61,851 nucleotides of DNA from contig JAFGDN010000044.1 of the NCBI GenBank assembly GCA_016932095.1, forward strand, positions 1 to 61,851. The letters run 5' to 3'. Positions 35,695 through 55,540 of this stretch are shown here, one piece after another. Below the pieces are notes generated by a model. It saw only the letters and a list, made by a program, of their open reading frames with translations. It made no database searches and was not told where the DNA came from. The position numbers were made by a program, and so were the translations under genes. Positions within the stretch are counted from its first letter, which is position 1; each line of letters begins with the position of its first letter. This DNA is from Sedimentisphaerales bacterium (lineage in GTDB: Bacteria > Planctomycetota > Phycisphaerae > Sedimentisphaerales > Anaerobacaceae).

Positions 35695-36048
35695 ATCTCT
35701 GTTTTTAGCTTAAAAATGGTGCTTGCCCGCCCTAAGCGTGGGTGGCGTCAATTCTCCTGTCATAAAAGTAACGAAAACTCGTGAAAACAACGCTTTTTTG
35801 AGAAAAAGCGCGAATTTTTTGTGAAAATCTGTTAAAAACTGACTCAAACTAATAGTTTTTCTCTCAATAACGATAGGATGCAAGAATGTAAGGTTGCAAG
35901 GGTTCGCGCTTTTGACTATTCACAGTTATATAGTAGGATTTCCCATATTAACATTTTAAGGAAAAAGCGATTAATGGTTCCCCTGCTGCTGGACCAATTT
36001 AGCAGCACTCCCCCCCCGATAGCAAGACCGTTGGAGCAACAGTCGAGG

Positions 36049-36073
36049 GCCCCTGCTAACAGCTTGCAGGGGC
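36049..36073. repeat. dispersed palindrome, carbamoyltransferase-remnant copy
   Basis: GCCCCTGC (36049-36056), loop TAACAGCTT, GCAGGGGC (36066-36073), followed by AGGCAGGA. The same loop and flanks occur at 54061-54085 on the other strand inside nfnB. Confidence 0.75.
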
Positions 36074-36098
36074 AGGCAGGATGGAACCTGTTATCGTG

Positions 36099-36206
36099 CT
36101 TTTTTCTGCTGAAACGCTCTTCCTGCAAAGCAGCGGGTATTGCGCCGTCGCGCGCCAGTGCGGCGGCATTGTCGTGATAAAACGCCGATATTCCGAGGAT
36201 ATTCAT
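36099..36206 (-). pseudogene. carbamoyltransferase N-terminal remnant
   Basis: From ATG 36206 the frame reads MNILGISAFYHDNAAAL ... LQEERFSRKKHDNRF, the unmistakable start of NodU/CmcH-type carbamoyltransferases, normally about 570-600 aa. After some 36 residues the frame enters the palindrome at 36049-36073 and then unrelated sequence, ending at 35916. The remaining domains are missing, so this is a dead fragment. Such enzymes sit in surface-polysaccharide and exosortase-type loci in related bacteria (from memory). The repeat may mark the point of breakage. Confidence 0.75.
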
Positions 36207-36466
36207 AATTATACTGTTCGGCATTTGAGATTCATAAGGTGTTCACCCGGCGCCTATTTGTTTCGTCTCCAAATAATGAAAATCGCCAGGAAAATGCAGA
36301 TGCCCAAAGGCGACCCACTGCTCAATAATCGAGGCAAATAAGTGCGGGGCCGGTTTTTTGCAGTTTTGGCTTTTTTTCTTAATATTTACATATTAAAACG
36401 CGAGCTCTTGACGTTTTTTTTCCTTAACCTGCCTTAAAAGTGAGCCGATAGATGAATTGGCTGTAA

Positions 36467-53068: not shown

Positions 53069-54550
53069 TTATAGTTTTGCCGACAGGAATTTGTGTATAT
53101 TCTGGGCGGCCTTTTTGCCGTCGCCCATAGCTAAAATGACGGTAGCCGAGCCGCGGACGATATCGCCGCCGGCAAATACGCCTGGGATGCTGGTCATAAA
53201 GTTTTCATCGACTTCGATATAGTCCCATTTATTGAGCTTCAGGCCGGGGGTTGTCCTGGTAAGAAGCGGGTTTGCGCCTGTTCCAATGGCGACTATAACG
53301 ACATCACAGTCGATTGTGAATTCCGAACCGGGGATTGGAACCGGCCGGCGTCTGCCTGATTCATCCGGCTCGCCTAATTCCATTCTTATACATTTAATCG
53401 CTCGCACCCAGCCGTCGTCGGTTCCGAGGACCTCCACCGGCGCTGCGAGCATCTCGAACCTGATATTTTCCTCTTCGGCGTGGTGAACTTCCTCGACGCG
53501 GGCGGGCATTTCAACCCTGCTGCGGCGATAGACGATTGTGCTTTCGATTGCGCCGAGGCGTTTGCTTGTCCGCACCGCATCCAAAGCGGTATTGCCGCCG
53601 CCGATGACGCAGACGCGCTTTCCCCTGACAATCGGCGTATCCGAGTCGTGGTTGTAGGCCTCCATAAGATTGGTGCGGGTGAGGTATTCATTGGCTGAAT
53701 ACACGCCCTTGAGGTTTTCGCCGGGAACATTCATAAATTCAGGCAATCCCGCCCCGACGGCTATAAAGACCGCCTCGAAGCCCTCTTCACTCATAAGCTG
53801 TGGTATTGTAACGGTCCTGCCTACGATAACGTTGGTTTCGATTGTAACGCCGAGGGCTTTGAGATTCTCGATTTCCCTGTTGACTACTGATTTAGGCATA
53901 CGAAATTCCGGTATGCCGTAGATTAGCACGCCGCCGGCCCTGTGAAACGCCTCGAAAATGGTTACGTCATAACCGAATTTTGCAAGCTGGCCTGCGCAGG
54001 TAATACCCGCAGGCCCAGAGCCGATACAGGCAAGCTTTTTGCCGGTCTTGGGTCTTGCTTGCCCCCGCAAGCTGTTAGCGGGGGTGTCTTGCCTGCCCCT
54101 GCATGGCGTGGGCAGGGGCGTCTGATTTTGATGTTGCATCTGGTAATCTGCGACGAAACGCTCCAGCCAGCCGATGGCGACGGGCGTATCGCTTTTGCAC
54201 CTGATACAGGTTGCCTCGCACTGAATTTCCTGCGGGCAAACCCGCCCCGTTACCGCCGGCAGGTCATTATCCTTACGGACAAGCTCGGCAGCCGCTAAAA
54301 AATCGCCATTGGCGATAAGCCCGATGAAACCCGGTATATCAATTCCGACCGGGCATCCGGGAACGCATTTCGGATTTTTGCATTGAAGGCAGCGCTGTGC
54401 TTCTCGGATGGCGACCTGTTCCGACAGCCCGAGGTTGACTTCCTTGAAGTCCCTGCTTCGCTCGATACCGTCGCGATGCGGCATTTGCTGACGCGGTATC
54501 GCCAGGCGTTCTTGGGCCGTCATTTTTTTTTGTTCTTCAGTCACTCTCAA
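53069..54550 (-). CDS. nfnB: NADH-dependent ferredoxin:NADP oxidoreductase large subunit (NfnB / GltA-like)
   Basis: 493-aa flavoprotein. The N-terminal [4Fe-4S] domain has [18 protein letters not shown] and [14 protein letters not shown]. The FAD part begins [14 protein letters not shown]; the NADPH part has [11 protein letters not shown]; the end has [16 protein letters not shown]. With NfnA upstream it fits electron bifurcation between NADH, ferredoxin and NADP; a glutamate synthase small subunit is the alternative, but no large subunit is present. Start TTG 54550 with AGGA upstream; ATG 54523 is possible. Between the Fe-S and FAD domains (about residues 142-165) lies an in-frame insert encoded by two dispersed palindromes. 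Confidence 0.87.
54061..54119. repeat. two dispersed palindromes inside nfnB
   Basis: First: GCCCCCGC, loop AAGCTGTTA, GCGGGGGT (54061-54085). Second: GCCCCTGC (54095-54102), 9-nt loop, GCAGGGGC (54112-54119). Read on the coding strand, both units are followed by GGCAAGCAAGAC-like flanks, as at 36049-36080. Both keep the reading frame open. Confidence 0.8.
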
Positions 54551-54696: not shown

Positions 54697-54702
54697 TTTA
54701 AC
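54661..54702. repeat. 42-bp dispersed repeat, copy 2
   Basis: Matches 32286-32327 at 37 of 42 positions without gaps. It overlaps the stop codon of nfnA (54698-54700), so the repeat supplies the end of that gene. Confidence 0.75.
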
Positions 54703-55540
54703 CGAGATTTTGGAGTTTGCATTTATGCTCTTCGTATTTTTTGCCTTCGTGGTCTTTATAGGTCTTAAGCCGGTCCATAAGCTCATCGAAATCGACCTTA
54801 TGGCCGTCGAATTCCGGGCCGTCAACGCAGGCGAATTTTCGTTCGTTGTCAACAGTAACCCGGCAGCCCCCGCACATACCCGTGCCATCGACCATAATCG
54901 GGTTCAAACTGACGATGGTTGGGATATTCAGCGGCCGAGTCAGTTCCGATACGGCCTTCATCATAATCACAGGCCCCGCGCAGTAAACCGCGTCGATTTG
55001 ATTATCCTGCTGGTTAATAAGCTCTCGAAGGGCGTCGGTAACAAGCCCCTTTTTGCCGGATGAGCCGTCGTCGGTTATAGTTATGAGCTTGTCGCTGACT
55101 GGGCCGAGCAGGTCATCTAAAATCATAAGGTCTTTTGTTCTTGCCCCGATGATACTGATTATTTTATTACCCGCCTGCCTTAACGCTACCGCCTGCGGAT
55201 AAACGACTGCTGTTCCGAGACCGCCGCCGATTATGGCAACCGTCCCGTATTTTTGTATATGGCTTGGCCGGCCTAACGGCCCCGCAACGTCGCAAAACGA
55301 GTCGCCTTTGCTGAGGGTCGCCATTTCAGAGGTGCTTTTACCGACGCTTTGAACAATAAGCGTGATTGTTCCTGTTGTTGTGTTAACATCGGCTATTGTC
55401 AGCGGTATGCGTTCGGAATGGCCAAACGAGCGGACAATCACAAATTGCCCGCATTTACGTGATTTGGCTATCCGAGGCGCCTTTATCTCATACCGGGTAA
55501 CATTCGGCCCGATGGTCTGTTTTTCGACGATTTCAAACAT
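54698..55540 (-). CDS. nfnA: ferredoxin:NADP oxidoreductase small subunit (NfnA / sulfide dehydrogenase beta-like)
   Basis: 280-aa flavoprotein of the ferredoxin-NADP reductase family. The FAD-binding barrel includes GQFVIVRSFGHSERIPLTIAD, the nucleotide part IIGGGLGTAVVYPQA, and the C-terminal [2Fe-2S] ligands lie in MVDGTGMCGGCRVTVDNERKFACVDGPEFDGH. This layout is that of NfnA and related dihydroorotate dehydrogenase electron-transfer subunits; the NfnB-like gene downstream points to NfnAB. AGGAG precedes the ATG. It is divergent from ftsW. Confidence 0.87.
   Translation of the reverse strand: MFEIVEKQTIGPNVTRYEIKAPRIAKSRKCGQFVIVRSFGHSERIPLTIADVNTTTGTITLIVQSVGKSTSEMATLSKGDSFCDVAGPLGRPSHIQKYGTVAIIGGGLGTAVVYPQAVALRQAGNKIISIIGARTKDLMILDDLLGPVSDKLITITDDGSSGKKGLVTDALRELINQQDNQIDAVYCAGPVIMMKAVSELTRPLNIPTIVSLNPIMVDGTGMCGGCRVTVDNERKFACVDGPEFDGHKVDFDELMDRLKTYKDHEGKKYEEHKCKLQNLG

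Follow-up and report, generated by a model that had tools for sequence, protein, structure and literature searches.

Two hairpins in the interdomain linker of NfnB

The nfnB gene of this Sedimentisphaerales bacterium raises the question of whether two GC-rich palindromes inside an intact reading frame are an ordinary protein linker or mobile DNA that has become part of an enzyme. The window, by which we mean the whole analysed stretch of 61,851 nucleotides, encodes both Nfn subunits on its minus strand. In the profile search, the nfnB product matches TIGR01316 at 591 bits over the cut-off, and its best relative of solved structure is NfnI (5jca, E 2e-158), while the nfnA product is a sulfide/dihydroorotate dehydrogenase-like FAD/NAD-binding protein. 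Among named NfnB records, the closest come from Phycisphaerales MAGs, in agreement with the planctomycete host expected in the original prediction. The features discussed below are as follows, with slashes marking joined ends.

53069..54550, minus strand: nfnB, intact 493-aa ORF, NfnI large-subunit type NADPH-dependent ferredoxin:NADP oxidoreductase (GltA-like flavoprotein)
54698..55540, minus strand: nfnA, ORF of the partner subunit, adjoining nfnB (NF004862, 408 bits)
54092..54118, minus strand: family A element copy 1, 27 bp, CCCCTGC CCACGCCAT GCAGGGG CAGG (consensus scan, family alignment, covarying stem, excision test)
54085..54091, minus strand: CAAGACA spacer between the two copies, one heptad-array unit (joined flanks CAGACG/CAAGACA/CAAGACCCAAGACC)
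54058..54084, minus strand: family A element copy 2, 27 bp, CCCCCGC TAACAGCTT GCGGGGG CAAG (model match 50.1 bits, excision test)
54044..54057, minus strand: heptad units left 3' of the elements, CAAGACCCAAGACC, coding for ARPKT/RPKT (sequence, joined flanks)
36050..36076, plus strand (antisense to the remnant): family A element where a carbamoyltransferase remnant breaks off (48.6 bits)

The prediction placed the two palindromes in the linker that joins the Fe-S domain to the FAD domain, with the frame unbroken, and this is where they are found, between the end of Fer4_20 at residue 141 and the start of Pyr_redox_2 at residue 172. The hairpin at 54062-54084 has the loop AAGCTGTTA and a 7-bp stem, that at 54095-54119 has an 8-bp stem, and folding of the segment returns two stem-loops (z -3.3). 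The minus strand of 54044-54124 reads CAGACG CCCCTGCCCACGCCATGCAGGGGCAGG CAAGACA CCCCCGCTAACAGCTTGCGGGGGCAAG CAAGACCCAAGACC, with the two copies arranged head-to-tail and both read in frame. Excising both 27-bp units joins the flanks into an unbroken heptad array and leaves a linker of 15 aa in an unchanged frame, near the usual length of 16 aa.

The palindrome at 36049-36073, to which the first nfnB palindrome had been likened, has the identical loop, but its flank is similar rather than the same (GGGGCAGGCAGG against GGGGGCAAGCAAG). It does lie in a broken carbamoyltransferase, at the breakpoint of a remnant ORF (35916-36242, minus strand) that covers only positions 2-41 of the 346 of Carbam_trans_N. 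The second nfnB palindrome, which had not been connected with the first, belongs to the same family.

A dispersed palindrome family with a covarying stem

The exact 13-mer of the loop occurs only twice, both times within the window, which would leave no family at all; this reading is refuted by a degenerate pattern, which finds about 20 related palindromes with a 9-nt loop in the genome, and by the covariance model made after alignment of 22 of these palindromes. The family, called family A here, has a unit composed of an unpaired CAGG and a 23-bp imperfect palindrome, in which a 7-bp GC-rich stem encloses the 9-nt loop YWACRRCWT, with information content dropping to background directly outside. 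Two stem types are present, CCCCYGC../..GCRGGGG and CCCCCGA../..TCGRGGG. The stem columns covary, with 19 cells altered on either side of the stem together; in one pair, 11 sequences have C-G, 10 have T-A and 1 has G-C, with zero breaks, and sliding the stem partner by 1-3 columns lowers pairing from 97% to 42-61%.

By the covariance model, the 2.95-Mb Phycisphaerae genome that contains the window has 50 copies. Three congeners have 25, 23 and 18, two other genera have 11 and 17, and thirteen more genomes have 1-6 each, with none found in 42 of the 61 genomes searched. The counts derive from searches and individual stretches of sequence. The copy number in the present genome is far above chance.

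The unit is 27 bp and inserts beside a preferred tetranucleotide

Copies often sit in repeats, so the site restored by removing a copy should occur elsewhere in the genome. For each copy, k bases were removed, the 12 + 12 flanking bases were joined and the best match was sought in 229 kb of the genome's own sequence. With k = 27, 20 of 49 copies match at least 20 of the 24 bases, against 0-5 for the thirteen other lengths in the range 21-34; at a threshold of at least 21 of 24, the figures are 11 copies against 0-3. Examples of restored sites are CCACAGAGGACA/CAGAGGTCACAG, matched in 24 of 24 bases, CCACAGATTACA/CAGATTTCACAA (23) and TTCGACTATGCT/CAGGACATAGTT (22). For 29 of the 49 insertions no matching empty site was found in the 229 kb. 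An excision test based on the heptad lag of 7 gave only a small rise at 27 bp, and the general empty-site test was used instead.

The tail CAGG ends the unit in 40 of 49 copies, a conservation that is partly by construction, as the hits were collected with a model including the tail; the excision test is unaffected by this. The four neighbouring bases are variable, with a preference, not an absolute one, for C[A/G]RG. Tail and neighbouring target are identical in only 9 of 49 copies, which rules out a target-site duplication and indicates a tail belonging to the unit beside a preferred target. On the opposite strand, the arrangement is CCTG plus hairpin located 3' of CYYG, a REP-like layout. 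Judged from these junction sequences, family A is evidently an exact 27-bp insertion without target-site duplication.

The targets include arrays of heptads, CAAGACA among them, another palindrome family (CCTTCGACNNNGCTCAGG), the palindrome beside the Y1_Tnp gene of this genome and other copies of family A itself (L061, L106). A heptad array adjoins 7 of 49 copies, compared with 3% of random places, so this association is real but concerns a minority.

In-frame copies in other conserved genes

About 9 of the 49 copies lie inside conserved genes, the remaining ones being intergenic, near the ends of genes or in short frames that no family match supports. The original prediction would have fallen had the genome held no further copies of the palindrome; there are about 47 more, several of them in frame in other conserved genes. 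Between TSCPD and its C-terminal Cys tail, the NrdJ ribonucleotide reductase carries two units with CAAGACA in the middle, the arrangement also seen in nfnB. A DinG-type helicase has a copy after SATLSSG, inside an older TTCGACAAGCT palindrome, and further in-frame copies are found near the C-terminus of a PurQ-type amidotransferase, in the C-tail of ParA, at the N-terminus of a PilT-like ATPase and in an FtsQ-like protein, named from its appearance only and without a Pfam hit. By orientation, the genic copies are on the coding strand in 9 of 9 genes. In NfnB, NrdJ, DinG, PurQ and the FtsQ-like protein, the copy is missing in all three congeners, and the PurQ of G002 and G003 and the NrdJ of G002 have another palindrome (TTCGACAAGCTCAGG and relatives, read as STSSGQ) at about the same place.

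Since 27 bp are nine codons, the downstream frame is kept and no repair is needed. Across 49 copies and six frames, 258 of 294 unit frames are free of stops, compared with 66% open frames among random 33-mers of the same loci.

Some copies touch gene boundaries. In a fumarase C-terminal protein (L048 2019-2055) and a PEP-CTERM protein (L108 4126-4162), a family A copy supplies the final residues together with the stop codon, and two paralogous HNH/AP2-domain endonuclease-like genes (L057 2040-2822; L102 2831-3571) have a copy at each start. At the loop of DinG that carries the element here, another genome (G006, L233) has an insert bounded by a 14-bp inverted repeat, CCCCGCACCAATTG..CAATTGGTGCGGGG.

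The NfnB linker across orthologues

The NfnB linker is hypervariable among orthologues. It is 33 aa long here, whereas the orthologue mode is 16 aa (32 of 62) and 61 of 62 fall within 11-25 aa, giving a net gain of about 17-18 residues, where the original prediction gave about 20. The presence of these residues in most NfnB orthologues would have spoken against an insertion, and they are missing, also from the three congeners at 84-85% identity. The AlphaFold model, based on 63 sequences, has a mean pLDDT of 87 and falls below 50 internally only at residues 143-162, so that the sole internal segment of low predicted confidence corresponds to the inserted peptide.

The three congeners differ from each other in this linker. 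That of G001 is 16 aa long, shows no obvious repeat and is the same as the linker of record fen_1362. The linker of G002 contains a different palindrome, GTTAGCCCCCAGGCCCGCCTGGGGG, read as VSPQARLGV, which is a member of a family dispersed within the genus (the reversed-pattern control there is zero) with copies beside Y1_Tnp genes in G002 and G003. In G003, the linker is a heptad run, AGAAGACAGAGGACAGAAGG. Beyond the phylum, the NfnB linker of an Omnitrophota genome (L192) is also repeat-derived, with GACCAAA heptads, and that of a Desantisbacteria genome (L159) is perhaps so, with GGGGACAGTCCCC and CCCGCCTCGGCGGG palindromes; the pattern AAAGGGGACAGTCCCC has only two copies in the Desantisbacteria genome, which makes the cross-phylum case weak.

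Relation to known palindromic elements

Rickettsia palindromic elements (RPEs) are selfish palindromes that occur within many unrelated core genes, where they are read through in frame, with no fixed role for the insert, and an RPE-bearing guanylate kinase is active (reviewed in PMC2229807, PMC10969869). Family A resembles them in that its copies are in frame in conserved genes and missing in orthologues (NfnB, NrdJ, DinG, PurQ, FtsQ-like), and in its low-stop design. RPE-1-type elements are about 105-150 bp long (Ogata et al. 2000, as described in PMC2229807, PMC10969869), and RPE-4 and RPE-6 are short and CGTC-tagged (PMC3733652), whereas family A is 27 bp long, has another tag and lives in another phylum; by length and tag as described, family A is outside the described RPE families. 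The predicted likeness to the Rickettsia elements therefore concerns the way of working, not family membership.

The closer comparison is with intragenic REPs, which are 20-40 bp dispersed hairpins with an unpaired tetranucleotide at one end and were reported in 2013, as GTAG and CGTC REPs including Rickettsia RPE-4/6, also outside Rickettsia (PMC3733652). They lie in frame inside conserved genes of several species, including Opitutus terrae (Verrucomicrobia); their dimers add 20-30 residues, with tolerance in linkers proposed by the authors, and two Xanthomonas species have different REPs near the same recB site (PMC3733652). Family A is likewise a dispersed hairpin with an unpaired tetranucleotide and some copies in frame, and in the broad sense it fits the REPs, being a 20-40 bp imperfect palindrome with many dispersed, mostly extragenic copies. 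It falls outside both named superfamilies, with GTAG near the stem end in 1 of 49 copies and CGTC, the mark of the group including RPE-4 and RPE-6, at one end in 5 of 49. It further differs from the intragenic REPs in its CCTG/CAGG tag, the head-to-tail tandem, the 27-bp unit defined by excision and its Phycisphaerae hosts. In the open-access literature, we found no paper on such elements in Phycisphaerae.

REP-RAYT systems combine IS200/IS605-like Y1 transposases with a tag plus hairpin layout (PMC2817692, PMC3733652), while CGTC repeats are described without a known transposase (PMC3733652). Family A shares the tag and hairpin and, as in IS200/IS605-type elements, shows no target duplication and inserts beside the tetranucleotide C[A/G]RG (a preference, not absolute). 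Because tag plus hairpin, lack of target duplication and a tetranucleotide target match this class, family A may move by single-strand chemistry of the HUH/Y1, RAYT type. Unlike in REP-RAYT systems, no Y1_Tnp gene was found whose own terminal repeats are of family A. The single Y1_Tnp gene found in the present genome (L109 1846-2640, G000:C56) is flanked by a palindrome of another family, inside which the family A copy is nested, so that a RAYT is only a possible mover, and other-family palindromes also flank the Y1_Tnp genes of the genus, one of them, GTTAGCCCC..GGGG, being the palindrome of the G002 nfnB. Copies of family A lie 210 bp (G000) and 29 bp (G003) from Y1_Tnp genes, nested in another palindrome. 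G004, G013 and G021 have family A copies but no Y1_Tnp match, with the genomes of G004 and G021 being incomplete.

Two observations concern the Y1_Tnp genes themselves. Copies of a TATATAG-CCCC..GGGG-GTGCCCGCG palindrome stand on both sides of the gene of the present genome, a REPtron-like layout. In G002 and G003 (L070 1433-1485, L071 1433-1485), the RAYT-like Y1_Tnp coding sequence itself contains a pair of palindromes, GTAGGGGCAGAC..GTCTGCCC and GGGCGAAC..GTTCGCCCCTAC, whose ends are GTAG-like and which are read in frame as VGADQCVCP..MGEHAGSPLQ.

Origin of the NfnB segment

The segment very probably represents a 27-bp REP-like mobile hairpin that has inserted twice, judged from the sequence. 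The unit behaves as a precise insertion beside C[A/G]RG, often within older repeats such as heptad arrays or other palindromes, and in nfnB both units lie in a heptad array that encodes the interdomain linker. With nine codons and few stops in any frame, an insertion normally leaves the downstream protein intact, and copies persist where the nine added residues land in a flexible linker, loop or terminus. The inserted peptides are probably neutral passengers tolerated by selection.

That the linker varies so strongly among orthologues might suggest an ordinary lineage-specific linker with two GC-rich palindromes by chance, a reading we regard as practically refuted by the copy number, with some 47 further copies and exact 27-bp excision sites. 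Local repeat growth, in which a free linker is extended by slippage during replication and by gene conversion from repeats elsewhere in the genome while selection keeps the frame, would account for the heptad arrays found beside the palindromes, the varying length and repeat type of the congener linkers and the frequent location of copies in repeats. We consider it unlikely, as slippage products would not be expected to form a sequence family with a covarying stem and sharp boundaries, nor to give a single sharp excision length of 27 bp across dispersed, unrelated sites.

Retention of copies in several core enzymes, always in coding-strand orientation, could also mean that selection favoured the residues in NfnB, as in NrdJ and DinG, for what they do, for example in binding or by changing how the domains couple. 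This is very improbable given that the proteins are unrelated, the peptides and frames differ, only variable segments are hit and the predicted order is low; moreover, the segments are missing in congeners, which often have other repeats there.

Building on the insertion of a mobile hairpin, it is conceivable, if somewhat doubtful, that certain protein linkers are standing landing pads refilled by different repeat families, within the genus and perhaps across phyla, and that unit length, few stops and the choice of older repeats already present in linkers as targets make the hairpin gene-compatible. The cases behind this idea are NfnB, PurQ, DinG and NrdJ within the genus and the NfnB linker repeats of Omnitrophota and Desantisbacteria across phyla.

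Implications

Given the earlier report of intragenic REPs (PMC3733652), the original prediction made the occurrence in a planctomycete look more novel than it is. Here, naturally empty and filled sites set the unit at 27 bp, and the entry of a palindrome without gene breakage becomes a matter of nine-codon arithmetic. NfnB, NrdJ, DinG and PurQ with and without the insert coexist in one genus, which makes the cost of an insert measurable, and family A offers a direct view of how selfish DNA lengthens functioning proteins in a lineage of free-living bacteria.
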